This document shows, in pieces, positions 8,680 to 26,411 of a stretch of 26,411 bases of DNA. Each line of letters starts with the position of its first letter. Within the stretch, counting starts at the first letter, position 1. Origin of the DNA: a virus; the IMG/VR virus record IMGVR_UViG_3300008120_005083, positions 1-26,411 of that record. The stretch is one strand, 5' to 3'. The notes below the pieces were generated by a model. The model was not told the DNA's origin and did no database searches. It saw only the letters and a program-made list of their open reading frames with translations. The translations under genes and the position numbers were made by a program.

Positions 8680-11600
8680 TTAAAGCGTTGCTCTCGACTG
8701 TTGACCAAAGACACCAACTTGACCACCCGCTTCTGCAGCGTTGACCAGTACTTTACCAACTTTTGCTCCATCCATCTGTACGTTCATACTACCGATTGCT
8801 CGAACAACTGCATCTAATTTTTGTTCCAATCTACCCATATCTACTGATACATTTACCGGCGTTGATCCTTGTGGTTGATTGTTTAATAGTGCACCCTTCG
8901 ATAATAAACGAACTCCGTCATTTGCAATCATATCGTTTGCGTACGCTACAACAGTATCACTATTGTGTAATGCAATTGGTCCAGATGGGGTTACTAAAGT
9001 ACGTTCACCGTATCCAGAGTTTGAAACAACGTCTCCGCCCGTTCTTGGATTCGTAATTGCACCTGCTTCAATTTTCTTACCTTGATATAAGTTTGCCAAT
9101 GCAACAATCGATGCAGTAAACGCTGCTGTAAATTGTGGTGTAAATACATCTTTGAGTTTATTAATCTTATCCATACTCAACGCCGCTAGAGACGATACTA
9201 CCTTACCTATAGCTTGTCCGAGTGTATTCATCGTAGTTGCTAGTATATTGATAGAATCTTTAGCGGCACTTACATCTTTAGCTTTAGATAGTTTACCCAA
9301 CATTTCAATAAATGAACTATATGCTGTTGTTACTTCTTTTATTTTAGCAGTGTTCGTTGCGGCTGATACGGTTGATATTTGTTGGAATGATGATAATGCT
9401 GCTGTTATTTGTGCAGGGTCCGCATCAAATTCAAATTCTATTTCAGTATTAAATGCTTCAGCGAACGACTTAAACCCTTCAGCTTTTTGTTTCACTTTAC
9501 CAAGATCGCCCATCTCCATAGCATTGAATTCTCTATACTTCTGGTATAATGGTGTAAAGTCTACTTCAGCTAAATCTTCTAGTTTGTCTGCGAGATTGTC
9601 GGTGAACATCCCACCACCTTCACCGCCAAACTTCGACATTGCTTCAGCGAAGGCCTTAAACGCTTCTGCATTATTTTTTATTTTTGCCGGGTCACCGAAG
9701 TTTTGTGCAGCGAATATCTTAAATTTTGCAATAGGGTTATCTAAATCAACTTCAAAGAAACTAGCCAATCCCTTTGAAATAACACTACCCATACCTTCAC
9801 CAGAACCTTTATAGGCCGACATTGCTTCACCAAATGCTTTCATTGCCTCCGCATTTGCTTTAACCTTATTCGCGTCAATTGTAAATGATGCAAATTTTTG
9901 TAATTTTTCAATAGGTGGTTCTTGATCAAATAGTGAAGTGATTGCTCCAGCAACCGCACCAACCATTCCACCTATTTCTCCACCAGCATATGCCGCCATA
10001 GCTTTAGCATATGATACCATTGCACTTGCATTATTTTCTACTTTAACTTTATCAATATTATACAACGCAAATGCTTGTAATTTGTCCATCGGCGGTTCTT
10101 GTTCAAATAATGAAGCAACTGCACCGGCGATTGCACCGACCGTGTTACCAATTTGTCCAGCCCCATAAGCCGCCATTGCCAATGAATACGCAACGAGAGC
10201 TTTAGCATTATTAACGACTTTATCCAATGGGATATCAAATGAACTGAACTCTACTAGTTTTTCCATTATACCCTTGCCCGGCGTTATCAAATCAGCGAGC
10301 CCAGATACAAAACTACCTGCGGCGGCCGCAATCATTGCAACTCCAAACGCAGTCATACCTACAGCAAGAGCGGTCATACCTGCACCAACTTTCATTAGAT
10401 TCATTCCATCAATTTGATTAAATGACATCAAGCCTTCTGAAAGTGTTGGGAGAGCTTTGCCCATCAACCACGTTGCTCCTGCTAAAGCGGCACCTATTGC
10501 AAGTATTGCTGTGGCAATTATACCTGCTAGAGCTAAACCACCTAAAGCTACCATAGGATCAGCAAACGCTCTAAATCCACTAGCAATTCCCTTCAATATG
10601 CCCGATATCATTTGACCAGCACCCTTACCAAGTGCACCAAGTCCTTTTCCAAAGTCTGCTATTTTAGAACCAAGTGATCCATTTACTCCACCAAGACCTT
10701 CGGGTACTCCACCACCGCCTTCTTCACCACCCCCACCGCCAGGAAGTTTAGACATAACACCTTCTTCTAACTTACCTAACGCGGAATCTTGTAGTTCACC
10801 AGCTTTTTCTGCAGCCTTTTCTTCGAGACTTGAGATGATAGATGCTCCAGCATCTTCAGCGGCGGCTGCGACAGGCCCAGCAGCCGCTGCTGCGGCTGGA
10901 GTTGCTGCACTCACTACTGACGTAGCGGCTCCTGCAACCCCACCAGCACCTCCCGTTGCTTTTTCTGCTAAAGCTTTTAACGTACCAGCCACATCGGCCG
11001 CTCCTTTACCACTACGCATTGTTGCCATCATTACGATGAATGGAGATATGAATGAGAGGCCTTGAGCAATTAAACTAATTACTTTACCAATACCCGTTAG
11101 TTCTGTATTTTGGTTCAACGTTGCTTTATCAATTCGTTCAGCGTGCTTTGCAGTTTTTTCACCAGATGCCGCCATCTGATCTTCTCTCGATCCTTCTTCT
11201 GGTTTTGGTTGCGACATACGCAATAGTTCTTCCATCGGAATACCAAATGCATTTGACAACGCAAGTTGTTCAGACCGTCTCATCTTGGTAAGATCTTTGC
11301 CTTGTGAAGCAAGTTGTGAACGTAATTCGTTCATCAACGCTCCAGTATCCCCTGATTCTGAAATTTGTGCTAACTTCGAAGAGTCAAAATTAAATCCCAT
11401 TGCTCCGAGTTCAGATTGCTTTTCTAAGAAGCCTTCATAGTCTGAGATGATAGAATCTCCGAACGCATCTACTTTCTTTAAGTCTACCCCAATCTTTTTA
11501 GCGTCAGCAGCTGCTTTAGCAAACGATGCGGCAAATCGTGTTCCGTTACGAGCCATAATATCCGTATATTGCATTACGGCTTGGAAGGCGTCCTTAGTAT

Positions 11601-13254
11601 TCAATCCCTTCTTCTTAAACTCAGCAACGAATTTGTTTTGTGCATCTACTGCACCTTTAAGGTCACCCATTGAATTCGTCATAAATCCACGACGAGCCTT
11701 TGCCAATTCTTGAACGGTGACACCCATACTACGAGCTTGTGATGCTAATTTACTTGCTGCCGCTCCAGTTAACGTACCACCAAATTCGTCACCAAACACA
11801 TCACGGGCTTCAATCATGCGGTCAAAGTAATCTTGTCCACGATTACCTACCATTTCTTGCCACTTACCCTTCACAAGATTAATAGCTTTAGTTGGTTCAG
11901 TAAATGCCATCTTGGCAAGATTTTGTGCACTAATACCAACACGGCGTTCAAAGTCACGAAGTCCGTTACCTAGACTTTGAAGAGTTCCACCAACCTTACC
12001 CAAGAAGTTTGTAGTTCCCGATAAGACTGAGGACATTTTTTCAATTTTCATATTACGAAGATTTGCTGCAGTATCACCAGCGGAATCAGCTAATCCGTTT
12101 AGACGACTTGCCGCGCTCTCTGCAGCGGAAGTTAATGTATCTAATTTTTTATCAGCTCTGTCAAACGCTGCCTCAGATTCTTCTACTCGGTTCATTGCAG
12201 ACTGCAATTCATCACCATATTCATCAAGTCGTGAAGACGCTTCTCTAGAAGATTGTTCAGCGGAAGCCAGAGCTTCTGTACTTTGTCCTAAAGCGTCCGC
12301 CATTCTGCTCTCTTGGGCAGTCATTGCTGTTATAGCTGTTTCTTGTGAAGCGGCTTGTTGTTCTAACTGTTGCAATTGACTACGGAGTTGGAATCCTGTT
12401 GCTGCTACTGCAGCAAGTTCTCGTTTAGCTTCGTCTGAACCATCTTGTAGTGCTAACCATTCATCATATAATACATTTTGTGCAGCTAGTTGTTGAGCAA
12501 CTGCGTCTCTCTGTGCTTCAATATCAGTTTTTTGTGATTGTAAAGCTTCTATACCAGATCTTATATTTGTCAACTGTTCCGTTCTTGCTTCAACTTCGGC
12601 CTGTATAGCTTTTACATTTTCTTGTGCAGCCGCTACTTCATCTCTAGCCATTTGAACCATAGCACGTGCAGCATCTGCTTGAAGTTTACGAGCTTCAAGT
12701 AAATCAGATATACCTTGCATTTCAGCCTGATGATTTTGTAACTTTTCTTGAGCGGCTTGAAGCTGTTGTTGTACTATAGGAAATTCAGCAGCAATATTGT
12801 CTAGTTTTACTTTTTCTAAATCTATTAGGTTCTTTGACTGATTAAAACGTTCCTTACCTAAAATAATATCTGCTAAAACATTACTACCAAATCCTCTAAA
12901 CGCTGCAGTTAAATCACGTTGGGCGCGTTGTCCTTGTTGAACAGCATCTGTACTGTATTTAACTTCTTTTTTGTACGGTTCAAGTGCTTGATTTATTTCA
13001 CGGCGTTTTTTACGTTCTTGTGCCTGCTCATTTCGTAAATCTGTTTGTTCTTTTCTAGTTCTAGGTGCGTCTTTTGCATATTCACCCATAGCAGAAGCTG
13101 CTTCTTTTGATACAGAACCCAATCTATCTAATTCTTCTGCACCACCTAATGTAGCGCCTCTTAATTGAAATAATGCGGGGCCGAGCGAAACCAACATTCG
13201 GTTGAGTTCCGCCATCGTACTATTAAGTTCACTAAAATCTAGTTCTTCAGCCAT
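8680..13254 (-). CDS. Tail tape-measure protein with six tandem repeats
   Basis: A 1524-residue protein, the longest in the tail module, placed after the chaperone genes where tape measures sit. Residues about 55-400 are glutamine-, alanine- and glutamate-rich coiled coil. About 430-720 is a helical mixed region. About 780-870 is alanine- and glycine-rich linker, followed by hydrophobic segments (about 900-1000) of the kind used to cross the host membrane during DNA entry. Residues 941-1300 hold six tandem repeats of 58-62 residues. The C-terminus has a glycine/serine segment (GGDVVSNSGYGERTLV) and an amphipathic tail. If fully helical at 0.15 nm per residue, the tail would be roughly 230 nm; this is an estimate only. 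No lysozyme or peptidase motif was recognised. Confidence 0.85.
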   Translation of the reverse strand: MAEELDFSELNSTMAELNRMLVSLGPALFQLRGATLGGAEELDRLGSVSKEAASAMGEYAKDAPRTRKEQTDLRNEQAQERKKRREINQALEPYKKEVKYSTDAVQQGQRAQRDLTAAFRGFGSNVLADIILGKERFNQSKNLIDLEKVKLDNIAAEFPIVQQQLQAAQEKLQNHQAEMQGISDLLEARKLQADAARAMVQMARDEVAAAQENVKAIQAEVEARTEQLTNIRSGIEALQSQKTDIEAQRDAVAQQLAAQNVLYDEWLALQDGSDEAKRELAAVAATGFQLRSQLQQLEQQAASQETAITAMTAQESRMADALGQSTEALASAEQSSREASSRLDEYGDELQSAMNRVEESEAAFDRADKKLDTLTSAAESAASRLNGLADSAGDTAANLRNMKIEKMSSVLSGTTNFLGKVGGTLQSLGNGLRDFERRVGISAQNLAKMAFTEPTKAINLVKGKWQEMVGNRGQDYFDRMIEARDVFGDEFGGTLTGAAASKLASQARSMGVTVQELAKARRGFMTNSMGDLKGAVDAQNKFVAEFKKKGLNTKDAFQAVMQYTDIMARNGTRFAASFAKAAADAKKIGVDLKKVDAFGDSIISDYEGFLEKQSELGAMGFNFDSSKLAQISESGDTGALMNELRSQLASQGKDLTKMRRSEQLALSNAFGIPMEELLRMSQPKPEEGSREDQMAASGEKTAKHAERIDKATLNQNTELTGIGKVISLIAQGLSFISPFIVMMATMRSGKGAADVAGTLKALAEKATGGAGGVAGAATSVVSAATPAAAAAAGPVAAAAEDAGASIISSLEEKAAEKAGELQDSALGKLEEGVMSKLPGGGGGEEGGGGVPEGLGGVNGSLGSKIADFGKGLGALGKGAGQMISGILKGIASGFRAFADPMVALGGLALAGIIATAILAIGAALAGATWLMGKALPTLSEGLMSFNQIDGMNLMKVGAGMTALAVGMTAFGVAMIAAAAGSFVSGLADLITPGKGIMEKLVEFSSFDIPLDKVVNNAKALVAYSLAMAAYGAGQIGNTVGAIAGAVASLFEQEPPMDKLQAFALYNIDKVKVENNASAMVSYAKAMAAYAGGEIGGMVGAVAGAITSLFDQEPPIEKLQKFASFTIDANKVKANAEAMKAFGEAMSAYKGSGEGMGSVISKGLASFFEVDLDNPIAKFKIFAAQNFGDPAKIKNNAEAFKAFAEAMSKFGGEGGGMFTDNLADKLEDLAEVDFTPLYQKYREFNAMEMGDLGKVKQKAEGFKSFAEAFNTEIEFEFDADPAQITAALSSFQQISTVSAATNTAKIKEVTTAYSSFIEMLGKLSKAKDVSAAKDSINILATTMNTLGQAIGKVVSSLAALSMDKINKLKDVFTPQFTAAFTASIVALANLYQGKKIEAGAITNPRTGGDVVSNSGYGERTLVTPSGPIALHNSDTVVAYANDMIANDGVRLLSKGALLNNQPQGSTPVNVSVDMGRLEQKLDAVVRAIGSMNVQMDGAKVGKVLVNAAEAGGQVGVFGQQSRATL
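9355..10434 (-). repeat. Six tandem ~59-residue repeats inside the tape measure
   Basis: Repeat anchors fall at residues 941, 999, 1058, 1117, 1177 and 1239 (spacings 58, 59, 59, 60 and 62). The shared core is 'K...F....ID..KVK.NAEAMKAFAEAMAAY', often followed by a glycine/alanine-rich hydrophobic stretch and 'SLF.QEPP'. The first copies are hydrophobic and the later ones more polar. The DNA copies have diverged, so this is an old duplication maintained in protein. Confidence 0.75.
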
Positions 13255-13259
13255 TTACA

Positions 13260-13652
13260 TTACCCGTTTAAAATATGATAAGCAGCTACCATAAGAGCAA
13301 GAGGATTACCACTTGGAACTGTAACTAGTGGTAATCCTCCTAATGCCATACCTTTAAATGCGGTGTCTCGTACAATAGTAGCAATAGGCATCCCATATAC
13401 GTTACTACCTTTAAATACTTTATTTCCAGATAAGTTAGCAATTGGTACCCCAGCTATCTTATCTCCTTTAAACAATTTATTACCAACGATGGTATAAATC
13501 GGTAATGATCCCTTGGCGGTATAAATATTACTACCTTTATATACTCTGAAGTTATCGACAACAGTTAGCACTGCGGCACCGCCTCTGGCGGTGCCTTTAA
13601 ATGCTCTATCTATTCCCATTCCTTCCATCAGTAGTGCTTTTAATGATATCAT
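13260..13652 (-). CDS. FKG-repeat beta protein between chaperone and tape measure
   Basis: A 130-residue protein built from about five short repeats around 'FKG....G.PIATI.GNKV'. The lysine-glycine pairs are at 19-20, 39-40, 62-63, 81-82 and 100-101 (spacing 19-23). Each unit looks like two beta strands with a tight glycine turn, so a small propeller or 'beta-flower'-like closed fold is plausible. The C-terminus ends in a hydrophobic helix (LALMVAAYHILNG). The function is unknown. It sits 5 bases after the chaperone extension and 5 bases before the tape measure, so it is expressed with both and may help in tail assembly or decorate the tail. Codons 19-25 form a perfect GC-rich hairpin. Confidence 0.55.
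   Translation of the reverse strand: MISLKALLMEGMGIDRAFKGTARGGAAVLTVVDNFRVYKGSNIYTAKGSLPIYTIVGNKLFKGDKIAGVPIANLSGNKVFKGSNVYGMPIATIVRDTAFKGMALGGLPLVTVPSGNPLALMVAAYHILNG
13575..13595 (-). promoter_or_regulatory. Perfect GC-rich hairpin inside the FKG-repeat gene
   Basis: A 9-base inverted repeat, GGCACCGCC (13575-13583) and GGCGGTGCC (13587-13595), with a 3-base loop. It is the most stable simple hairpin I see in this AT-rich window, and it lies about 60-80 bases into the gene. No U-run follows on the minus strand, so it is not a canonical terminator. It may slow ribosomes, protect mRNA 3' ends or be a coincidence of a glycine/alanine-rich repeat. Confidence 0.45.
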
Positions 13653-13657
13653 TTAGG

Positions 13658-13864
13658 TTACCGTTTAGTTCGTTTCTTTATTTCATCTGCCTCTTTCTTT
13701 TTTAACTCGTTAAACTCTCTGATGTAAAAGTCTCGAAGAAAGATTGGCATCTGGTATAAATCTAAAACACTAAATGCACCTTTTGAATAGTGCGCCGCAA
13801 CCATTATAGTTCTATGAATGTCTAACTTATACTCCGGCGTCAGGCCAAAAGAAACCAGTGCCAA
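13658..13864 (-). CDS. Chaperone extension frame, no ATG (frameshift or TTG start)
   Basis: An open frame of up to 68 residues that overlaps the last 38 bases of the baseplate-chaperone gene in another frame. It reads ...GAFSVLDLYQMPIFLRDFYIREFNELKKKEADEIKKRTKR, with a 'MP..LR.FY...L....KE' pattern and a basic coiled tail. It has no ATG near its beginning: the first is at codon 21, without a ribosome binding site. It may be reached by +1 (or -2) slippage on TTC-TTT-TGG at 13845-13853, giving a fused product of about 310 residues. Alternatively it may start at the TTG at 13862-13864, which has GGTGAGG 7 bases upstream. Overlapping chaperone frames just before the tape measure are a known phage arrangement. 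The coding nature is fairly secure; the mode is open. Confidence 0.6.
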   Translation of the reverse strand: MALVSFGLTPEYKLDIHRTIMVAAHYSKGAFSVLDLYQMPIFLRDFYIREFNELKKKEADEIKKRTKR

Positions 13865-14591
13865 TTGGCAACCTCACCGTATTAGTCGTTCCACACGATT
13901 CACAAGACATTGGGATATCAAAATCAACATCTGGAACGTGTTCCTTATATGAATCACGAATGAAACGTGAATCTCGTACTAACATATTTTCAACAAACTT
14001 CCAAATAGCTCCCTTGTTTGTATCACCGTTAACTGCGGTAATCATAGCACGGAGTCTTGCTGAAAATTCTGAACTCGTATCAGATGCTTTCTTTAGTGCC
14101 TTGACTTCCTTATCGATAGCGAATTCATCACCACGGGTTAAGAGTTTAAGCGTAACTTCTGCCTTTGATGCCGGGAGTACTACTGAAATTTGTTTTGGTT
14201 TATCTGATTCAGGTTCGTTTATAGTTTTTAGTGATGTAAGATCAACTGTCTCTTGCATTGTGTCTCCACACGAAGGACATTTAATTCCTACTGGATAATC
14301 CTTACCGTAACCAAGAATACGTGCCGCAACCATTACGGCGTTTAAATCACCAATTAACAAATCCGATGACTTTACTCCTTTGGTAACAATTAGACTATCC
14401 ATCAATTTGTCCAACACAATTCCCTTTTGAATTAAGTTTGTTGACGTAAGAATATCTTCTTCCTTTGTTGTCATATACTTTAATTCAATTTGACCAGAAC
14501 GTAACGGACTACCTTCTGGGTAAAATACACCCTTAGATGGTAAATCAATGACTTCTGTTGGATATAACTGATTGTCTGTAACTTGTTCCAT
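13827..14591 (-). CDS. T4-type baseplate/tail assembly chaperone (gp26-like)
   Basis: A 254-residue protein whose N-terminal half has the phage baseplate signature IDLPSKGVFYPEG (15-27), IELKYMTTKEEDILT (35-49) and KGIVLDKLMDSLI (56-68). It fits the 'T4 bacteriophage base plate protein' family, which includes gp26-type hub assembly factors. Two Cys pairs, CPSC (105-108) and CESC (230-233), probably form a four-cysteine zinc site. The ATG at 14591 has GGAG 7 bases upstream. The last codons (GFFWPDAGV) overlap an ATG-less downstream frame. Lying two genes upstream of the tape measure, it occupies the slot of tail assembly chaperones that wrap tape measures in other phages. I infer that role. 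The family call is good. Confidence 0.7.
   Translation of the reverse strand: MEQVTDNQLYPTEVIDLPSKGVFYPEGSPLRSGQIELKYMTTKEEDILTSTNLIQKGIVLDKLMDSLIVTKGVKSSDLLIGDLNAVMVAARILGYGKDYPVGIKCPSCGDTMQETVDLTSLKTINEPESDKPKQISVVLPASKAEVTLKLLTRGDEFAIDKEVKALKKASDTSSEFSARLRAMITAVNGDTNKGAIWKFVENMLVRDSRFIRDSYKEHVPDVDFDIPMSCESCGTTNTVRLPIGTGFFWPDAGV
13845..13853 (-). promoter_or_regulatory. Candidate +1 (or -2) ribosomal slippage site
   Basis: Read on the minus strand in the chaperone frame: TTC TTT TGG. A phenylalanine tRNA on TTT can move one base forward and still pair fully with TTT, entering the frame of the downstream extension. A -2 move from the same place also reaches it. A -1 move would hit a TGA two codons later, so -1 slippage is ruled out here. 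Confidence 0.4.
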
Positions 14592-16774: not shown

Positions 16775-17839
16775 TTATTTTTTAACTCTTGTCTTTCTTT
16801 TTGGTTTAGTAGCAGGTTTAACGTTCACCGTAATTCCTATAGTTGATGTGAGGTGTTGTTTAAACAATTCAATTTTTTTGTTAAAATCAACCCCTGCTAC
16901 GTTTATAGGAGCCACTTGTGATGGTGTGGGTTTGAGTGCGTTTTCTTGTTGAATACGTGCATCTCGTTCCGCTTTCTCTGCTTCCATTTTCTTTATACCG
17001 TTTTGCTGTTCTTTCTCTTGTATCTCTTTCACTCTTTCCCAATATATAGAAGGTGTCTTAAAACCAATTTCATCTTTGTTAACGAAATTAGGAACGTTGG
17101 GCTTGGTTCTATGTGTGGATTCAACCGTACCATCTGGGGTTGTGTGAACTGGACACTTTCTGCTTCCGTCTGGTGGATGCATACCTCTGAAATAATTTTT
17201 TTGCCAAAGATTTGGATCATATACCACACGTTGTCGCTGTTCTGACATAAACTCTGTTCTAGAAATATTCCAATCCCAATACAGATCGTGAAATTCTTTA
17301 GATTCAGCTTCACTCATTGAACGAATTTCTGGCTCTTCCATATCTTCAAATAAACGCATATCAACAGGATATAATTGACAGAACGGTTCACCGATTTTCA
17401 TTTCAAACTTACCAGGCTGCGTGAATCTCCAATTCATAGTAGATGTATATGGAAGCCAATGCGTTTCTACTAATCCTGAAAGGGGAATTATGTTTGGTGT
17501 TGGTTCATTTGGCGCACCCGTCATAAACATTCCATACGGATACTCCGTCTTGAATACATAACCTAAATGCCAAGTCAAAGTTCCTTCTCCAAAATGTGTC
17601 ACGGGATAATCAGTACCACCCAGATGAGTAATTTGTATATCGCCGGCAGTACGACCACCATTCCACTCCGCTATAAAATGCGAAGTGGATAGTAGTTGCC
17701 ATCCCCACGAATTTGCCATAGACAATGGTAAACAACGATAGGGATTTTTATTGGCAGCAACATCCATCCAATCACGACGAGACGCCGCTGGTACGAGTTT
17801 TGGTGGATTTGTCGTAGTAGGATATGCTATTACTTTCAT
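16775..17839 (-). CDS. DUF6065-like protein
   Basis: A 354-residue soluble protein. Residues about 1-215 match my memory of the DUF6065 family: PPKLVPAASRRDWMD, YRCLPLSMANSWGW, FIAEWNGG, THFGEGTLTW, GLVETHW, TMNWRFTQPGKFEMKIGEPFC and a final YFRGMH. The many conserved Trp, Asn and Glu residues look like a binding pocket. The biochemical role of the family is not known to me. The C-terminal 120 residues are a separate charged tail: coiled coil (KEIQEKEQQNGIKKMEAEKAE approximately 270-295), a proline hinge and a lysine-rich end (KRKTRVKK). It starts 6 bases after the dioxygenase stop, so the two are probably co-translated and may work on the same substrate. The family call is from pattern memory. 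Confidence 0.6.
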   Translation of the reverse strand: MKVIAYPTTTNPPKLVPAASRRDWMDVAANKNPYRCLPLSMANSWGWQLLSTSHFIAEWNGGRTAGDIQITHLGGTDYPVTHFGEGTLTWHLGYVFKTEYPYGMFMTGAPNEPTPNIIPLSGLVETHWLPYTSTMNWRFTQPGKFEMKIGEPFCQLYPVDMRLFEDMEEPEIRSMSEAESKEFHDLYWDWNISRTEFMSEQRQRVVYDPNLWQKNYFRGMHPPDGSRKCPVHTTPDGTVESTHRTKPNVPNFVNKDEIGFKTPSIYWERVKEIQEKEQQNGIKKMEAEKAERDARIQQENALKPTPSQVAPINVAGVDFNKKIELFKQHLTSTIGITVNVKPATKPKRKTRVKK

Positions 17840-17845
17840 AGTATT

Positions 17846-18391
17846 TTACACATGCGACCAATGTAAGAACATTTGAACAACATATTGTTCAGGAGAACAA
17901 ACCAACGGTTCTCTCCAATGTTTCATAGTTGTGCCTAAAATCATACCGCCGTCACCCATACCAATTGTCAAGGGAACCGTGTTACTTAGTTTGTCCGTAA
18001 CCCATAACGGCCAATCGGTTGTTAGATTATTGTATAGTGTAACGGAAATTGTGTAATCCAACCCAGTTCGATCCGTGTGGGGCTGAAGTGTGCCACCGTT
18101 ATAGTAAATTCTAGCAAAAGAGTTTGCTGGTTTAATTTTACCAACAATACCTAACTCTTCTTCAATTCGTGGTTGTACTGCTCTTAAAGCAGATTCAAAC
18201 TCATTATGATTTCCTCCAAAGGATTGATCATAAAACGCATTTGGGGTTTCCGCTGTCTTTCCCTCAAACCGAAGCATATTCTCTTCTTTCATAGCCAATA
18301 CGATACTGGCATAGTTTACACATTGTTCCGGCGTAAACAATTCTTTAAGATACGCATATCCGTGCTTTTCAAAAAATTCTGCTTGATTCAT
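17846..18391 (-). CDS. 2-Oxoglutarate/Fe(II)-dependent dioxygenase (hydroxylase)
   Basis: A 181-residue enzyme of the prolyl-hydroxylase/PHYH-like type. Such enzymes use O2 and 2-oxoglutarate to hydroxylate a carbon, releasing CO2 and succinate. The iron site is visible: HTD (His105, Asp107) in LQPHTDRTGLDYTISVTLYNN, and His158 in MKHWRE. The co-substrate-binding basic residue may be Arg160, but this is not clear. SFARIYYNGG (91-100) is the usual strand before HxD. Its small size fits a single catalytic domain without targeting or membrane parts. AAGGAG stands 9 bases before the ATG. It is preceded by two carbamoyltransferases and the glycosyltransferase and followed by a DUF6065-like gene, suggesting that it makes the hydroxyl that is then glycosylated. 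A small-molecule substrate cannot be excluded. Confidence 0.8.
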   Translation of the reverse strand: MNQAEFFEKHGYAYLKELFTPEQCVNYASIVLAMKEENMLRFEGKTAETPNAFYDQSFGGNHNEFESALRAVQPRIEEELGIVGKIKPANSFARIYYNGGTLQPHTDRTGLDYTISVTLYNNLTTDWPLWVTDKLSNTVPLTIGMGDGGMILGTTMKHWREPLVCSPEQYVVQMFLHWSHV

Positions 18392-18394
18392 AAC

Positions 18395-19939
18395 TTATTT
18401 CTCCTTGTGAATTATAAAAGTTTCTAGTACAACCGCATCGAGTTCTTTATTCTCCAATACCCAAAGTGCTTCTTTATAGGTGTTAAGTATTGGTTTTCCT
18501 GCTATATTAAAAGACGTATTTAACAACACACCGATTCCCGTCTTATTATGTAGTTCTGTGAGTAGTTCATATAAGAATTTATTTTGTTCTTTGGTTACCG
18601 TTTGTACTCTAGCAGTCCCATCGATGTGTGTAATTGCTGCCAATCTATCTCTATATTCTTCACGCACTTTTGGACAAAAACTCATCCAACGTGTTTCACC
18701 TTCCCATTCAAAATACTTAGAAACATCTTCTAAACGTACAACTGGAGCAAACGGACGATAATATTCTCTTCCTTTAACTTTTGCATTTAAAGTATCTTTC
18801 ATATCGCGTATACTAGGGTTACACAATATGCTCCGATTTCCCAATGCTCTAGGACCATGTTCACATCTATCACGAACAACGCCTATTATTTTGCCTGACG
18901 CAATATAGTCTGCCAATATTGCCGTGTCAAGGGGTGTACCGTTTTTTTCGTGTACTATATTCATCAACTCTTTTCTATCCCACACCAACGGACCAGCATA
19001 TGTGCAGTCCATTGGTTCAATTGGTTTTATAGTAGACGCTAATAACCCAACAGCCAATCCACAATCATTGGGGTTGGGTGGAACAAACACATTTCTGATT
19101 TTAGCTAATTTAGTGTTGTTTAATATATTCAGTCCACATCCACCGACTAAAATTAAAGGCAACGATGGGTACTCGTTTAGGAATGGAGTTATCTCTTCTT
19201 CAAAAATTTGCTCAAATACAAATTGATTTGAAGCGGCTAAATCTTTAGCATCTTGACCCGTAAATCTAAACTCATATGATACGTCTAAAACGTTTATTAT
19301 GGTTTTTAATGTGTTCGGTATGTTCCCACCGTCTCCACTATTATATATAGTGTACAATTTATCTACGAAATCTTTTCTAACATTACCGTAATTTGCAAAT
19401 CCCATAAGTTTACCCGCATATACGAGATTACCCCAATACGGTTCCTCTTTTCGTATATCTTCTATGTAATGGGCAATTAAACCATATGGAACTGCCAAAT
19501 CTCGTTTACCAGAATATATTTTTGTAATTCCGCCTCGCCTGTCACCTATAAAAACATTAAAAAATCCTTCATCAGAACCACCGTCCGCTGATACTATTAA
19601 CGCATTGTTGTATGGTGATTGATATAATCCTGAATATGCATGTGCGGCATGATGTGGAATGTATTTATATTGTTTTGCTGGAAATATTTTATAGTGATCG
19701 TGTGCTATGGAATTCCACGCAACCGTCTCATATTCCACCACACCATACTTCTCTTCAAAGTATTTTTTTATTTCGTGTATAATTGGCACCGCATATGGTT
19801 CTTTTACGCTATAATAAAACCACAATCCTATATTTTTTAATGACATAAACCGTTCAAGTTCTACAACCTCTAAAAGTTTATCGTCTTTGGATATAGCAAA
19901 TGCCGTATTGTGTGAACCAAAAAAACCTAAATTAAACAT
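18395..19939 (-). CDS. Carbamoyltransferase, NodU/TobZ family (copy 2)
   Basis: A 514-residue enzyme that should move a carbamoyl group from carbamoyl phosphate, via carbamoyl-adenylate, to a hydroxyl, typically of a sugar. The Kae1-like N-terminal domain has HHAAHAYSG with metal-type histidines, SADGGSDEG, VGGCGLNILNN and DRCEHGPRALGNRSILCNP. The C-terminal YrdC-linked part has GREYYRPFAPVV, EGETRWMSFCP, GTARVQTV and LLNTSFNIAGKPI. All landmark motifs are intact. It begins 2 bases after the stop of a paralogue; the C-terminal domains of the two are much more alike than the N-terminal ones. It ends 3 bases before the dioxygenase start. It probably decorates a glycan made by the upstream glycosyltransferase. 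A small-molecule carbamoylation is possible. Confidence 0.85.
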   Translation of the reverse strand: MFNLGFFGSHNTAFAISKDDKLLEVVELERFMSLKNIGLWFYYSVKEPYAVPIIHEIKKYFEEKYGVVEYETVAWNSIAHDHYKIFPAKQYKYIPHHAAHAYSGLYQSPYNNALIVSADGGSDEGFFNVFIGDRRGGITKIYSGKRDLAVPYGLIAHYIEDIRKEEPYWGNLVYAGKLMGFANYGNVRKDFVDKLYTIYNSGDGGNIPNTLKTIINVLDVSYEFRFTGQDAKDLAASNQFVFEQIFEEEITPFLNEYPSLPLILVGGCGLNILNNTKLAKIRNVFVPPNPNDCGLAVGLLASTIKPIEPMDCTYAGPLVWDRKELMNIVHEKNGTPLDTAILADYIASGKIIGVVRDRCEHGPRALGNRSILCNPSIRDMKDTLNAKVKGREYYRPFAPVVRLEDVSKYFEWEGETRWMSFCPKVREEYRDRLAAITHIDGTARVQTVTKEQNKFLYELLTELHNKTGIGVLLNTSFNIAGKPILNTYKEALWVLENKELDAVVLETFIIHKEK

Positions 19940-19941
19940 TA

Positions 19942-21522
19942 TTACTTCCCTTTAGAAAAATAAAAATCTTCCAAAAATACCCCATCCATCTGTGTGTTTT
20001 CTAGCATCCATATTGCATCACGGTATGTGTTCAAAATGGGCTTTCCAGCTATATTAAACGATGTGTTGAGTAAAACACCCACCTCATAGTGGTATGCTAT
20101 AACTGTTAGTAAATCATACAGCCATTCGTTTTGTTCCCGAGTAACTGTTTGTACTCTAGCTGTACCATCAACATGCGTTATCGCTTTTAATCTGTCTCTC
20201 CACGCGGTTCGAACTCTTGGACAAAAACTCATCCAACGTGTTTCACCTTCCCACTCAAAATACTTGTTTACATCTTCTAGTCTAACAACTGGAGCAAATG
20301 GTCTGTAGTATTCTCGATTTTTAACTTTTGCGTTTAGTGTATCTTTCATATTCGGTGCGGAGGGATGGCATAGAATGCTTCTATTACCCAATGCACGGGC
20401 ACCGTGCTCCATTGTGCCCCGTACCACTCCAATTATTTTATGATTTAAAAACAGTTCATCTGCCAAATGTCTAAGACGTAACGGTTTAGCATTATACTGA
20501 TGAACGTACTTAGACAGAGTTTCTTTGTCAAATGGTTCCGGTCCAATATATGTAGAATCAAATGGTTCTTCAGGTTTTAGATGTCCTAACATAAATCCCA
20601 ATGACAATCCTCTATCGTCTGGGTTGGGAGATACAAACGTTGGTCTAGTTTTTGCAACTCTGGTATTATTTAATATATTCATCGCACATCCACCTGTCAA
20701 TATCAAATTACTTTCTTTATCTGATATATTTTCGTATAGTGATTTATCAAATACTTCTTCAAAGACAAATTGGGATGTCGCCACTATATCCTTCTCTATC
20801 TGCCCATTTAGTTTGTAGTCTCCGACAGGCAGTTTTAATGCGTCTTGTAACTTTTTATAGTTATCTAGCCGCATCTCAGAATTCCAATGATGTCCTACAT
20901 AATAATTTCGAATAGCATCTTTGTATTCTTCAACAACCTGACCATATCCAACCAGACCCATCAATTTGCCAGGATAAACCAACATACCTTGTAGTGGTAA
21001 TTGTTCTTGTTTAATAGAATCACAATGGTATCCCAGATACGCATATTTTTCACCTATATTACTTCTACCATCCTTGTTAAGTAATGTTAGTCCGTTTTTT
21101 CTATCAATTTTGTAGTAGTTGTAATTTCCATCATCACCCCCACCATCAAAACTAAGCACGTGTGCCTCGTCAAACGGTGACTGATAAAATGAGTTATACG
21201 CATGCCCCTCTTGATGCCAAAATGGAATCACTTTCTTAGTATTAAAAAATTCATAAATAGAATCAAATTCATTAGAGAATGCCTTTAAATCTGAGTAGTT
21301 ACAGAGAACAGTATCAAATTTTGTTACTCCATACTTTTTCTTAAAGTAATTTAACACCGTCTTATATCCGTGTGCCGGATGTATGAATCTTGGTTCGAAC
21401 CAAGCCAATCCCATATTTTTTATTTCAATCAATCGTTCTATATCTAATACTTCAAGTATTTTACCATCTTCAGCGATAGTAAAAGAAGAATTGTGTCCAC
21501 TATAAAAAGATAATTCAAACAT
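19942..21522 (-). CDS. Carbamoyltransferase, NodU/TobZ family (copy 1)
   Basis: A 526-residue paralogue of the gene downstream. Motifs are HQEGHAYNSFYQSPF, SFDGGGDDG, LTGGCAMNILNN, TMEHGARALGNRSILCHP, NREYYRPFAPVV, GETRWMSFCPRV, GTARVQTV and LLNTSFNIAGKPILNTY. The N-terminal domain, which should include acceptor-binding surfaces, differs widely from copy 2, suggesting a different hydroxyl or sugar target. Its ATG overlaps the glycosyltransferase stop by 8 bases (ATGTTTGA), so translation is probably coupled and the two gene products made in proportion. Family certain; acceptor unknown. Confidence 0.85.
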   Translation of the reverse strand: MFELSFYSGHNSSFTIAEDGKILEVLDIERLIEIKNMGLAWFEPRFIHPAHGYKTVLNYFKKKYGVTKFDTVLCNYSDLKAFSNEFDSIYEFFNTKKVIPFWHQEGHAYNSFYQSPFDEAHVLSFDGGGDDGNYNYYKIDRKNGLTLLNKDGRSNIGEKYAYLGYHCDSIKQEQLPLQGMLVYPGKLMGLVGYGQVVEEYKDAIRNYYVGHHWNSEMRLDNYKKLQDALKLPVGDYKLNGQIEKDIVATSQFVFEEVFDKSLYENISDKESNLILTGGCAMNILNNTRVAKTRPTFVSPNPDDRGLSLGFMLGHLKPEEPFDSTYIGPEPFDKETLSKYVHQYNAKPLRLRHLADELFLNHKIIGVVRGTMEHGARALGNRSILCHPSAPNMKDTLNAKVKNREYYRPFAPVVRLEDVNKYFEWEGETRWMSFCPRVRTAWRDRLKAITHVDGTARVQTVTREQNEWLYDLLTVIAYHYEVGVLLNTSFNIAGKPILNTYRDAIWMLENTQMDGVFLEDFYFSKGK

Positions 21523-24500
21523 TTTGTTTACCCATAATTGCTAGATACGCTTGTTCATAACTACGATAATGTTCTGGAGCACCGTTTCCTGCATTGTGTA
21601 TAATAAATGCTTGTGTATTAGTTTTTGGATTTACTAATACAGAGTTAGAACCACGTGCTAAATCTCCCAACAACTGCCAATCTTTACACGTTACCCAGAA
21701 CACATCACAGTTCGTATCCATCTGGACTTTATAGGTGTTTTCTATATTATTATGCACCCAAACGCCCAGCAGTCCTTGATCAATATTTGAATCAAAAGGT
21801 GCTGGTATTTCCAGTAACTCATCAATCATGCTTATTAAACTGTTTGCGTACCCCATGTATGTTCCAGCATTAACGTATTTGTATGGAGAATTTATTTTTT
21901 CATACTTTTCTTGGAACTGACTGTATTGATACGTAAATATCTGTTCTGCTGAAATCAATACTCTTGTGTCCTTCTTTATAAAGTTTGTTAGTGCAACGGT
22001 AGGTGTGTTGTTAAATAACGTATCATACCCGTCCATCACCAATACTATATCTTCGCTGTTATAAAGTGTTCTCAATTGTTGTTGTAGTAATATCAAACGT
22101 TCTCTAGTATTTCGAGGATTAAATACCTGCCCAATACCAATAAATTCTACTTCAATATTATACTTCGATGCCGTATCTAACAAGTACTTAGCTTTTTCTC
22201 TAGCAATATCTTGTGTTTCTTCGAATGCCCAAACTAATATCTTTAGTTTTCGAGAGTTACTTTCTATGTCAAATTTTATACGTTCATCGTGTTTATACTC
22301 TTCCCACCATTCCCAGCTTTCAGTAATAGTAATTGGATTTGGAGTTATTCCTTTATATACACTCGGATGTGCAATTCCATGCAAGTATGAAACACCGGAA
22401 TAAATTTCCCATTCTTTAATAGAACGCTCATTTCCTAGACCATATATACCCAAGTCTTTACCACCATCAATGTTTCTTAATATTCTGTGGTGTCGTTCTA
22501 CGCTCTTTTGAGCCATATCGTTTATGATGTTTTGATCAAAAGTATTCCAATGTCTTAGTCTATCTGGAAAATAATATTTTAAATGCCATGCTACGAATTT
22601 ATTTGGATTGAATAAATCCCAACCACGCGTCCACGAACGCATAGCTAACGTAGACTCTTCACCGTGGAAGTATAAGTTTGGATCATATGGTACTTCCCGA
22701 ACCCAAAATCCAGGAGCAAATACGATGGCTGCACTTATATGTCGAGATGGTATTGGTTTTTCTAGATTATCCGCCGGTAAGAATCCGTATGTGAAATAAC
22801 TAGAATGTGGATTGATATTATCTATCTTTTGTTTTTTTACTTGTGCATCATATAATATCCCATCACGTTCTTCAACCACTTCACCATCTAACGGTGGTAG
22901 TGCGGCAACAGCAGTCATATCATAATAATACGGTGGACCTATACTAATAATGCTTTTTGGATTTGGTAGTTCGCTATACATGCCCATCAACATCTCATCC
23001 CAATCTTTAGCAAAAATGGTATGAGAGTCAACTTGCATATAAAAATCTTCATCGTTAAAGAACTTATCTTGTACTAAATGTCTAGCCCAACAGACAGAAC
23101 CTTCTACGTCTTTCCAAAATACCTTGTGTATTTTTATTCGCGGGTCATTATCAAATACTGTAGTATCTTCAGTTTCGTCGTATTGCCAACACAAACCAAT
23201 TCTTATATTCTCAGGATATTTTGCTTGTGACAAACAACTATTAATTGTTCTGACTAATTGATCGTCTCTGAATGATGCAATGTTTACGAATATGGTTTTT
23301 GGTTTTAATCTAAATGTTACACCAAGATATTCTTCTAATTGCTGAACTGATCTTGTGTAGTTATTTTCTTCTAGAATTTTGTTTATTACGTTTATCGAAT
23401 TGTCTTGGAGTTTATTAAGATTTGGGCGTCTGTACGCGCTTCCATCTAAGTCCGCGGCATTATAATTATGCCACACAACCGCTTCAGATGTTAGTTTAAC
23501 ATCCCACCCGTTTAAATAACTTAAGAACAATTGTACATCTTCTTCACCTTTACTTACTATTTGATTTGGCACTTGAATTTCTTTCAACCAATCACTTGGC
23601 GCAAATATAAATCCACCCGCTATCCATTTGTTGTCAACAATTTCATAATCACTCATAGCTCCTAAATTTCTAGGGTCTAGTCTATTATCCTTTTCGTTTT
23701 CTGATGATAAGAATTGTTTGATAACTAAGGGAGCGTTTGTGGGAATTTTTGTAATATATTCTTGATTTGTTTCGGACAAATCAAAATGATTTGGATATGT
23801 AGACAGTAGCGTTTTAGTATTATGGAACCTACAAGTCTCAAGTTGATTTATTAGGATGTTATCCCAATTTGGTCTAAATCTAGAATGTGCATCTATCTGG
23901 AAAAAGTAATCTTCGTTAGTATACAGTTTATCTTTTATCAACTCTCGTGCCCAAACCACACCTTTTGAATCTTCTTTAGGTGTATAAATAATCTTTATGT
24001 TTGGGAAATTTTCATTTAATAATAACTGGTGGTGTTCATCATCGTGTTGTAAATGTACTCCTACTGTTATTCTGTCGAGGTTGTGAACGGTATTATACAA
24101 ATCTTTAAGCGTTGGGATTAATTGCTTATCGTGATATGCGGCAATTGATACAAATATAGTTTTGTTTTCAAAGTTCCAAGAGTCTTTATATTCTCTAGAC
24201 CAGTTTGCTACATATTTTTCGTGGTGTAAAAAGTCCAGTTGATCAAGTTCATCATAAGGTTTTGTATTAATATAAAAATTCTTATCTAGAACATCATTCA
24301 TATATCCACGCATTCTATATGCATATGAGGACAGCGTGGAGTAGTCATTTCCTATAAATTTAATAGCTCTCGTGCAGATTAATTGCTCTATGATTGGAAT
24401 GTAATTGTAGTGTGGGTTTATTTTTGTAGCCTTAGCCACCTCATCATAGAAATATAATTTATAGTGTCGAGCAAGAGGTTCAAAAAACTGTCTATTAGTT

Positions 24501-26074
24501 TCGTCTGTTGCGATATATAATCTTGAACCTATAGGAATTGTATCTTTTATATTATTAAAAATCTCTTCAGCAGATATGAATAGATGTTTGTACTGAAAAT
24601 CGTTTCTTCGGATATGAATTGCGTAATACTGTTGATCGCCTAACCAATTAATTGTTTGCCAAGCCATATCTGTTATTTCTGTTTTATAATGTACGTGGCG
24701 TCCAATTAATCTTTTTAACTCATTCTGTTTTGAAGTGTGGATTGTTTGATAAAAATTTCCTAGAAGAGTTCCATCGAAAAATATACAATCCCCATCTCCC
24801 ATAAAATCTTCTTTATTTAAAACTTCTCTGTTCTTGGTGAAGTCTGTATTCGGTTTAATTTTTTCGAAGTTCAACACATATCTCGGTACTTCATAGTCCA
24901 TAACTTTTGATGCAATAGTTGATATGTTGCCAAATGATGGTTCTATCTGTTTAATACTACAGAACTCTTCGAATGACATAACACCAATCCCCAAATCGTC
25001 TATATCAAAAAAATCCTCCAATCCAAACTCATCACGAAGAAGATACATTTTATATTTTGGTGGTAATACTAGTACTTTATTTGTTAGATAAGCAATACAC
25101 ACCGCCAACTCTAATGACATTCTAATATTATTGAATCCACCGGGCCACGGACGTAAAACAATGTATCCAGCAGAACCATCGTAAAATTTTAAAATGTCAG
25201 ATGTATCCCATTTTAAATGGTATAAAAAGTCAGTTCGTTCCTGAGAAACGTTTGTCAATAAAAGTTTATCTATAACGTTTTTTGCTGATTGAAGTGGTAT
25301 ATTCATATTTCTGTCCATAGTATATGCCTGTTTAAACCACAGGTATGATTTACTTATATCCAATATTTCGTTTGGAAAATGTATAAGTTTACTTACGTCA
25401 GTATCTCCAACATTTTTCCAAGCAGTACAATATCCAAAATCTTCTACATAATTTATATGTAATTTATTCTTTTTTACAGCGTAATCAAGCCCCCACATTT
25501 CTGCTTCCCAACGCTTTGTCTGTCTACGTATGCCCTCAGACGCTTCTTTATAATCTTGAATTATTTTTTTTAGTGTTTTGAAATTGATACAAAATGGATA
25601 CATAATGCCCCACCCGTATCTATCAGACTCATCCACAGTCCAATTGTTCAAAGGATAATAGTGAATAAATCTTTGAGCTATAATCTCATCATCTTTGGGT
25701 TGATATGTTATTGGTTCCAAAAAAATCATGTCTGGGTCTAGAAACAGTAACGTATCATCATCCTTAAAATAGTTGTTATCACACAACCATTTAATGCTCA
25801 TATACTTATTCGGAATTGCACCCCACCAATGCTTTTCTCCACGCTTGGCATGCTCTTCTGTATTTTCCCACTCCAATGCGTAATCGGGAAGATCTATAAC
25901 TGTTACATCTTTATCGGTATAAACATCAAATGGACGATGTTCGCCCATTTCATCAAGACACCGCAAAAATATCAATTTACCGTTTTGATTAACTTTCTTC
26001 CGTGACCAGTTTAATAAACGACACTGCCACGATTGATAATCACTATTACTAGTTGGTACTATGATATAATCCAT
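21515..26074 (-). CDS. Five-domain fused glycosyltransferase
   Basis: A 1519-residue protein that reads as five enzymes in a row. (1) About 1-245: GT-A fold with DPDM (113-116), preceded by WWGAIPNKYMSIKWL, resembling hydroxyproline arabinosyltransferases. (2) About 300-610: O-fucosyltransferase-like, with RPWPGGFNNIRMSLELA, HIRRNDF (487-493) and ATDE (522-525). (3) About 637-925 and (4) about 926-1235: two copies of the Skp1-type GlcNAc transferase domain, with FVSIAAYHD and FVNIASFRD starts, GVVWAR and SVCWAR, and metal-type DAH (728-730) and DSH (1016-1018). (5) About 1275-1495: lysyl-hydroxylase-type glucosyltransferase, with VLVMDGYDTLF (1344-1354), SAEQIF, YVNAGTYMG and NIDQG. No signal peptide or membrane segment. 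ATG at 26074 has GGGAG upstream and overlaps the epimerase by 26 bases. Domains 3-5 are the best supported; the sugars used are unknown. Confidence 0.75.
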   Translation of the reverse strand: MDYIIVPTSNSDYQSWQCRLLNWSRKKVNQNGKLIFLRCLDEMGEHRPFDVYTDKDVTVIDLPDYALEWENTEEHAKRGEKHWWGAIPNKYMSIKWLCDNNYFKDDDTLLFLDPDMIFLEPITYQPKDDEIIAQRFIHYYPLNNWTVDESDRYGWGIMYPFCINFKTLKKIIQDYKEASEGIRRQTKRWEAEMWGLDYAVKKNKLHINYVEDFGYCTAWKNVGDTDVSKLIHFPNEILDISKSYLWFKQAYTMDRNMNIPLQSAKNVIDKLLLTNVSQERTDFLYHLKWDTSDILKFYDGSAGYIVLRPWPGGFNNIRMSLELAVCIAYLTNKVLVLPPKYKMYLLRDEFGLEDFFDIDDLGIGVMSFEEFCSIKQIEPSFGNISTIASKVMDYEVPRYVLNFEKIKPNTDFTKNREVLNKEDFMGDGDCIFFDGTLLGNFYQTIHTSKQNELKRLIGRHVHYKTEITDMAWQTINWLGDQQYYAIHIRRNDFQYKHLFISAEEIFNNIKDTIPIGSRLYIATDETNRQFFEPLARHYKLYFYDEVAKATKINPHYNYIPIIEQLICTRAIKFIGNDYSTLSSYAYRMRGYMNDVLDKNFYINTKPYDELDQLDFLHHEKYVANWSREYKDSWNFENKTIFVSIAAYHDKQLIPTLKDLYNTVHNLDRITVGVHLQHDDEHHQLLLNENFPNIKIIYTPKEDSKGVVWARELIKDKLYTNEDYFFQIDAHSRFRPNWDNILINQLETCRFHNTKTLLSTYPNHFDLSETNQEYITKIPTNAPLVIKQFLSSENEKDNRLDPRNLGAMSDYEIVDNKWIAGGFIFAPSDWLKEIQVPNQIVSKGEEDVQLFLSYLNGWDVKLTSEAVVWHNYNAADLDGSAYRRPNLNKLQDNSINVINKILEENNYTRSVQQLEEYLGVTFRLKPKTIFVNIASFRDDQLVRTINSCLSQAKYPENIRIGLCWQYDETEDTTVFDNDPRIKIHKVFWKDVEGSVCWARHLVQDKFFNDEDFYMQVDSHTIFAKDWDEMLMGMYSELPNPKSIISIGPPYYYDMTAVAALPPLDGEVVEERDGILYDAQVKKQKIDNINPHSSYFTYGFLPADNLEKPIPSRHISAAIVFAPGFWVREVPYDPNLYFHGEESTLAMRSWTRGWDLFNPNKFVAWHLKYYFPDRLRHWNTFDQNIINDMAQKSVERHHRILRNIDGGKDLGIYGLGNERSIKEWEIYSGVSYLHGIAHPSVYKGITPNPITITESWEWWEEYKHDERIKFDIESNSRKLKILVWAFEETQDIAREKAKYLLDTASKYNIEVEFIGIGQVFNPRNTRERLILLQQQLRTLYNSEDIVLVMDGYDTLFNNTPTVALTNFIKKDTRVLISAEQIFTYQYSQFQEKYEKINSPYKYVNAGTYMGYANSLISMIDELLEIPAPFDSNIDQGLLGVWVHNNIENTYKVQMDTNCDVFWVTCKDWQLLGDLARGSNSVLVNPKTNTQAFIIHNAGNGAPEHYRSYEQAYLAIMGKQNV

Positions 26075-26411
26075 ACTGCTCCCGTATCCAGTTAAATGTA
26101 CGAGTCATTCCTTCTTCTAATGTAATAGCAGGTTCCCAATTTAACAATGCTTTTACTTTGTCATTATGTGAATTTCTTCCACGTACTCCCAACGGTCCTT
26201 CAATGTGTTTACGTTGGAGTTTGACATTTGCTGCATTTTCAATAATGGTAATCAATTCATTAACAGATACCATTCGGTCTGACCCAATATTAAATGCCGA
26301 TTGATGTGGACTATCCATTACTCGAATTGTCCCCTCTACCGCATCGTCAATATACAAGAATGACCGTGTTTGTTCACCGTCACCCCACACTTCAATCGTA
26401 TCAGAGTTGGT
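26049..26411 (-). CDS. GDP-mannose 3,5-epimerase-like, C-terminal part (runs off window)
   Basis: The last 120 residues of an NAD-dependent epimerase of the extended short-chain dehydrogenase family. The gene is cut by the right edge of the window; the frame stays open to the last base. The segment VWGDGEQTRSFLYIDDAVEG, then FNIGSDRMVSVNEL, HIEGPLGVRGRNSHN and LLNWEPAITLEEGM closely follows plant and bacterial GDP-mannose 3,5-epimerase, especially 'GP.GVRGRNS.N'. That enzyme makes GDP-L-galactose (and GDP-L-gulose) from GDP-mannose. The catalytic Tyr-x-x-x-Lys and the Rossmann loop are outside the window. Its stop overlaps the glycosyltransferase start, so it likely supplies the sugar nucleotide to it. 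A related UDP/GDP-sugar epimerase is possible. Confidence 0.75.
   Translation of the reverse strand, partial: TNSDTIEVWGDGEQTRSFLYIDDAVEGTIRVMDSPHQSAFNIGSDRMVSVNELITIIENAANVKLQRKHIEGPLGVRGRNSHNDKVKALLNWEPAITLEEGMTRTFNWIREQYGLYHSTN

Follow-up and report, generated by a model that had tools for sequence, protein, structure and literature searches.

O-Glycosylation through hydroxyproline or hydroxylysine is considered characteristic of eukaryotes and giant viruses. The subject of this study is a six-gene operon (an epimerase, a multidomain glycosyltransferase (GT), two carbamoyltransferases, a 2-oxoglutarate (2OG)/Fe(II) hydroxylase and a DUF6065 protein) located in the IMG/VR virus record IMGVR_UViG_3300008120_005083; the window, i.e. 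the whole stretch of DNA analysed, is this entire linear record of 26,411 bp. On balance, we lean towards the view that a T4-like phage uses the operon for hydroxylation-dependent O-glycosylation of a protein, the candidate being a fibre or virion protein. The Skp1 pathway of Dictyostelium and other protists, with its prolyl hydroxylase PhyA and its hydroxyproline-GlcNAc transferase Gnt1, resembles the operon in having a soluble enzyme of prolyl-hydroxylase fold, PF11397 domains and a multidomain soluble GT. The operon differs from it in belonging to a phage, in adding O-FucT, HPAT-like and PLOD domains, an epimerase and carbamoyltransferases, and in having repeat fibres rather than Skp1 as candidate substrates. 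In extensins and arabinogalactan proteins (AGPs), plants hydroxylate and glycosylate clustered SP, TP and AP dipeptides. The likeness here lies in the prolyl 4-hydroxylase (P4H) domain of relatives of the window, in the HPAT-family domain and in the (TP/SP/AP)n proteins encoded nearby in several relatives; however, no arabinose pathway was seen, the phage GTs are fused in one protein, the HPAT match of the window is below threshold and hydroxyproline in the phage system is a prediction. The sugar pathway of bleomycin shares GDP-mannose epimerisation and NodU/TobZ-type sugar carbamoylation with the operon, which has protein-acting GTs and a hydroxylase instead of a peptide-synthetase scaffold.

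Two virus-borne systems are also close. With the hydroxylation and glycosylation of collagen lysines in animals and mimivirus (LH3, L230, R699; PMC9546862), the operon has in common a PLOD-type GT with its DXXD motif, and collagen-like proteins are encoded near the module in loci L003, L030 and L032; in contrast, the window hydroxylase looks to be of the prolyl rather than the lysyl type and no collagen gene is present in the records of 11 relatives. The cultured cyanophage S-SCSM1 (PMC9602691) carries an O-FucT gene and, directly after it, an OG-family hydroxylase gene (5e-24), together with a carbamoyltransferase, a mannose-6-phosphate isomerase and a GDP-mannose-3,5-epimerase. Its GT, unlike ours, is single-domain, without the HPAT/GlcNAc/PLOD fusion, and the cluster was published as one of cell-wall modification. 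The neighbouring relative of the window hydroxylase in S-SCSM1 is gp258; gp260, also considered as its counterpart, was rejected (19% alignment only). Since S-SCSM1 is cultured and carries a reduced version of the system, the idea is testable.

The window phage is a T4-like myophage, as indicated by a gp32-like single-stranded DNA-binding protein, a UvsW-like helicase and a T4 baseplate family protein. The six consecutive same-strand genes listed by an earlier note on this DNA were all found in place on the minus strand (26411-16775), followed 257 nt further by the UvsW gene. The gaps or overlaps of less than 10 bases that the note had given are correct for every junction save that between the epimerase and GT genes, which overlap by 26 nt (successive values are -26, -8, +2, +3 and +6 nt). 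The first gene is incomplete, being cut by the contig end: it encodes the C-terminal 120 aa of an epimerase (26049-26411; Pfam GDP_Man_Dehyd and Epimerase, 4e-8 and 1e-7), 99% identical to the epimerase of locus L050, which matches the plant GDP-mannose-3,5-epimerase 2c59 over its full length (4.7e-91). By homology, the operon epimerase is thus a GDP-mannose-3,5-epimerase. Both carbamoyltransferases, of the NodU/TobZ family, contain the Carbam_trans_N and Carbam_trans_C domains of Pfam. For the first (19942-21522) the Carbam_trans_C match is at 9.6e-59 and that to PHROG_1601 at 1.6e-107; for the second (18395-19939) the Carbam_trans_C match is at 6.2e-62, and the PDB matches are the novobiocin, GdmN and TobZ carbamoyltransferases (1e-39 to 6e-45). 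The last gene (16775-17839) encodes the DUF6065 protein (PF19541, 1.6e-68). A profile search of PDB sequences gave no useful match for it; its model, of moderate confidence, has a dUTPase-like fold (Z 11.2-11.6 over 113-126 residues). DUF6065 was unmentioned in the literature found. The domain also occurs in alphaproteobacteria (L037-L043), and there a TPTPTP-rich open reading frame (ORF) lies two genes upstream in L038 and L041. No membrane segment was predicted in the operon, and no membrane protein, polymerase or flippase is encoded in it.

The 1519-aa GT (21515-26074) does consist of five GT domains, as the earlier note had it: Pfam matches were obtained along the protein and a metal or donor motif is kept in each domain (DPDM at 113; GGFNN at 312 and HIRR at 487; QIDAH at 726; QVDSH at 1014; DGYD at 1348). 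By their profile matches, all five are members of families whose studied representatives are generally known to modify protein residues or hydroxylated residues, and none was placed in an unrelated family. Domain 1 (aa 1-290; 25205-26074) resembles the hydroxyproline O-arabinosyltransferase (HPAT) family PF23452: taken alone, these 290 residues match it at 3.6e-4 and 20.4 bits, below the cut-off of 23.9 bits. The cut-off is passed by homologous domains (2.9e-11 to 7.5e-11), such as those of L003 (7.5e-11) and L261 (3.6e-11), and by three of the six aligned members. Domain 2 (aa 304-592; 24299-25165) is an O-FucT domain (PF10250, 6.9e-24), found in all six homologues. Domains 3 (about aa 640-922; 23309-24157) and 4 (about aa 928-1256; 22307-23293) are both GlcNAc domains (PF11397, matched by the protein as a whole at 8.4e-82), the latter being 60% identical to a lone ORF of L003 (3397-4401). 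Domain 5 (aa 1296-1501; 21572-22189) is a PLOD glycosyltransferase (PF25342, GT_PLOD, 3.2e-22) whose family profile matches mimivirus R699 (2e-32) and human LH3 (1e-27); it carries the DXXD motif described for PLOD-type GTs (PMC9546862). In the homologous GT of L251 (10001-13684), aa 640-712 of the GlcNAc domain give a weak, sub-threshold match to the TET-associated glycosyltransferase (TAGT) family PF20691 (1.7e-4).

The strongest new evidence is genetic linkage. With the HPAT/O-FucT region as anchor, 49 loci were fetched, of which 18 remained after dereplication at 90% identity and selection for two or more ORFs upstream (these form 10 clusters at 70% and 6 at 60% identity); 22 UvsW loci without the GT served as control. 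A 2OG hydroxylase was present within 10 ORFs in 18/18 HPAT/O-FucT/GlcNAc transferase loci, against 1/22 controls (Fisher p=1.7e-10). In 15 of the 18 its gene is directly 5' of that of the GT, with -1 to 23 nt from stop to start; L241, where the GT has a frame break, is a sixteenth adjacent locus. Hydroxylase and GT are thus genetically coupled, and this conserved linkage, the adjacency, the P4H domain of relatives and the prolyl-hydroxylase fold strongly support the proposal of the earlier note that a hydroxylase is paired with an O-glycosyltransferase of protein type. Neither of two outcomes that the note had named as refuting, transferase domains falling into unrelated families and gene sets in which the hydroxylase is never present, was observed. 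The same note had a carbamoylated glycan built on a virion or host protein. The carbamoyltransferases are there, in 12/18 transferase loci against 1/22 controls (p=3.5e-5), but carbamoylation is optional and they are not an obligatory part; as to a virion target, genes for Pro/Thr/Ser-rich (PTS-rich) proteins are near many relatives but not significantly enriched relative to the control (see below).

Several phage records contain relatives with the same gene order, one of them of 166.6 kb. In L002 and L003 the order is GT ... hydroxylase, DUF6065, UvsW, baseplate, without carbamoyltransferase in the module; L002 has the epimerase too, whereas some of the GT domains of L003 are encoded by genes of their own. 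L045-L050 form one near-identical family (one record, G029, is of 166,598 bp) with the epimerase (99% identical), the GT, a lone GlcNAc GT, both carbamoyltransferases, the hydroxylase, a methyltransferase-like gene, DUF6065 and UvsW (89%). L032 has the epimerase, a lone O-FucT, GT2s, a carbamoyltransferase (70%), the hydroxylase and DUF6065. psbA, looked for as a sign of a cyanobacterial host, was found in none of 15 records. Among cultured phages, none was seen to carry the HPAT/O-FucT/GlcNAc fusion. In L030, a gene for a pentapeptide-like protein with TPFGQTPFASF repeats (10765-12555) and a radical SAM gene (12570-13934) lie between DUF6065 and UvsW, adjoining three collagen-like genes.

The window hydroxylase (17846-18391) has no Pfam match. 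Its AlphaFold model (pLDDT 94.4) has the double-stranded β-helix fold of the prolyl-hydroxylase type, and the iron triad H105-x-D107...H158 is invariant in the alignment of its family, as is an Arg two residues past the distal His. Among the 50 fold matches listed the closest is the Pseudomonas putida prolyl hydroxylase 4j25 (Z 18.5 over 169 residues, 2.8 Å; 5e-10 with Foldseek); the list also contains the Dictyostelium prolyl hydroxylase 6t8m (Z 17.9), human PHD2 (17.8) and the collagen prolyl hydroxylase of a chlorella virus (16.7), and no member of the TET or AlkB families. In most relatives the enzyme adjoining the GT has two domains (about 410-437 aa). The C-terminal half is of the window enzyme's family; the N-terminal half is, by sequence search, a P4H (Bacillus P4H, 1.2e-24; human P4HA2, 1e-19; PBCV-1, 3e-17; Chlamydomonas, 6e-17; Pfam PF13640) in which the canonical H-D-H-K residues are invariant. 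A comparison of the window family profile with these phage P4H domains by hhalign gave an E value of 1.7e-5 and a probability of 78.6%. In the 166.6-kb relative, a single-domain enzyme is the sole ORF recovered by either hydroxylase profile. The residue targeted by the window enzyme would most likely be proline. In cultured phages with close P4H homologues (Salmonella phage Sen-NF and Erwinia phage Y3), the gene is beside an asparagine synthase gene, without such GTs. PHROG_2954 (grouped here with S-SCSM1 gp260), a family labelled 'ferrochelatase', matches the window hydroxylase (2.6e-25), and its label looks wrong.

Neighbouring genes suggest candidate substrates, namely extensin/AGP-like (TP/SP/AP)n or collagen-like fibre proteins. 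In the 166.6-kb relative, a 688-aa (TPSITTTPS/TPSPV)n protein is encoded directly 5' of the epimerase, and L002, L032, L237, L251, L264 and L267 have genes for comparable (TPSPV)n, (TTAPP)n and (TPAP)n proteins beside the module; the L264 repeat protein gene is 47 nt from the P4H gene and its product ends with GPPGPPGPP. In other, unrelated phages (L004-L014 and others), lone GlcNAc-type (PF11397) GTs likewise have a PTS-rich, TPTPTP-type gene directly 5' in 14/71 cases against 4.0 expected (p=3.7e-5). Collagen as a universal substrate was rejected: PF01391 is absent from the 11 relatives' records mentioned above, that of 166.6 kb included.

The PLOD search also revealed a separate phage protein of about 600 aa, represented by gp218 of phage S-CAM9 (L020:7329-9170, P0013) and by about 70 viral loci or contigs (L060-L132). 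It comprises a GT25 domain (6.3e-29), a PLOD-GT domain (7.5e-47) and a C-terminal domain whose matches are the lysyl-hydroxylase domains of human LH3 (1.2e-6) and of 6ax6 (2.3e-9), which is entitled 'procollagen lysyl hydroxylase and glycosyltransferase'. A gene for a Gly-X-Y fibre lies at most 5 kb 5' of it in 17/19 dereplicated loci with enough flank, versus 2/20 UvsW loci; the S-CAM9 fibre is rich in GPKGEKGQKG. This predicted LH3/COLGALT-like fusion is a separate line of support for the general idea of phage fibres being hydroxylated and glycosylated by phage enzymes.

The favoured mechanism would run as follows. The 2OG/Fe(II) enzyme would act on one of the phage's own fibre proteins, either a repetitive Pro/Thr/Ser-rich one or a collagen-like one, and hydroxylate its side chains (in all likelihood those of prolines). 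The GDP-mannose-3,5-epimerase would make GDP-L-galactose or GDP-L-gulose. The HPAT-like or a GlcNAc domain of the multidomain GT would then prime the hydroxylated residue, after which the glycan would be extended, the GDP-sugar probably being used by the O-FucT-like domain. Where present, the NodU/TobZ carbamoyltransferases would carbamoylate sugar hydroxyls; DUF6065 may have an accessory role. The purpose of such fibre decoration could be stability, host binding or shielding.

Several observations weigh against this reading. With respect to the hydroxylase, SnoN, which is not a protein hydroxylase, scores Z 18.0 against the window model, so that the substrate cannot be read from the fold by itself. 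Past the distal His of the window enzyme, no Lys or Arg is evident where one normally binds 2OG. The enzyme also has no counterpart of the N-terminal P4H-type domain that most relatives carry, and a PDB search with its profile retrieved no P4H, solved P4Hs giving no significant match in sequence. GlcNAc-type GTs elsewhere are seldom near a hydroxylase (3/71), and the dUTPase-like fold of DUF6065 is not accounted for. As to the substrate, the window, which ends within the epimerase gene, contains no PTS-rich or collagen-like gene, and PTS-rich genes are near 9/18 transferase loci versus 6/22 UvsW controls (p=0.19). Not being above background at locus level, this association was rejected as proof of substrate; the link is therefore weak and the proteins are candidates only.

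The main rival, which we consider rather unlikely, is that the genes remodel the lipopolysaccharide (LPS) or capsule of the host, glycosylating and carbamoylating the O-chain while the hydroxylase acts on a sugar or lipid, for instance to exclude competing phages. GDP-mannose-3,5-epimerase can feed LPS L-galactose, and comparable genes have been published in such terms: GTs of the pelagimyophage host-recognition cluster as O-chain modifiers (PMC7029224), cyanophage clusters of GT, carbamoyltransferase and 2OG genes as capsule decoration or secondary metabolism (PMC7824862), and the S-SCSM1 genes as cell-wall synthesis (PMC9602691). However, the GT domains of the operon come from protein-acting, not LPS, families, their obligate partner (18/18) is of a prolyl-hydroxylase type with no known role in O-antigen synthesis, and the operon has no membrane protein, polymerase or flippase. 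We give still less weight to the GTs directly glycosylating Ser and Thr of PTS-rich fibres, in mucin fashion, with the hydroxylase acting elsewhere or merely shaping a polyproline backbone. The repeats are indeed Thr/Ser-rich and Ser/Thr are the targets of O-FucT enzymes; moreover, the GlcNAc-type GTs that adjoin PTS-rich genes in other phages (14/71, see above) mostly have no hydroxylase nearby (3/71 with 2OG genes). Yet the HPAT/O-FucT-containing GT is always linked to a hydroxylase, mostly as the adjacent gene.

DNA hypermodification, with hydroxylated bases being glycosylated and carbamoylated, appears very improbable. Phage carbamoyltransferases can act on 5-hydroxymethylcytosine (PMC8670742), and the dUTPase-like fold of DUF6065 and the weak TAGT match of one homologue noted above also count in its favour. 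Those DNA-acting carbamoyltransferases, however, co-occur with thymidylate synthase, others sitting by GTs (PMC8670742); here a protein of the thymidylate synthase/hydroxymethylase family, which modification of this type requires, was found in 0/12 records (most of them fragments) and a C5-cytosine methylase in 0/15, the 166.6-kb relative being included in both sets, which weakens the DNA reading. The fold of the hydroxylase, closest to prolyl hydroxylases, argues in the same direction. There is equally little to commend a secondary-metabolite cluster making a small carbamoylated glycoside of the bleomycin or tobramycin kind: the carbamoyltransferases do match antibiotic-pathway enzymes (novobiocin, GdmN, TobZ), and bleomycin contains L-gulose and carbamoyl sugars, but the GTs are from protein-acting families and no non-ribosomal peptide synthetase, polyketide synthase or scaffold-forming enzyme is encoded in the operon or in the scanned genes of relatives.

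Outside the operon, the window has a DNA polymerase A-like gene (2417-3691) and, close to it, a gene (1143-1961) whose product resembles acyl-CoA:6-aminopenicillanic acid acyltransferase (3e-4).

To return to hydroxylation-dependent protein O-glycosylation, a literature search found no paper on hydroxyproline glycosylation in phages. We tentatively put forward the possibility that phages make hydroxyproline-rich glycoproteins: tail-fibre stalks of the (TP/SP/AP)n or collagen-like kind would receive carbamoylated glycans with L-galactose through the joint action of a phage-encoded prolyl hydroxylase and the HPAT/O-FucT/GlcNAc/PLOD fusion transferase. No earlier case of protein glycosylation that depends on hydroxylation would then be known from a bacterial virus. 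If true, hydroxyproline- and hydroxylysine-linked O-glycosylation would extend to bacterial viruses, a joint, testable function would be at hand for the many 2OG oxygenases, multidomain GTs and carbamoyltransferases of phages that lack an explanation, and soluble, bacterially expressible enzymes would become available for the production of hydroxyproline glycoproteins.

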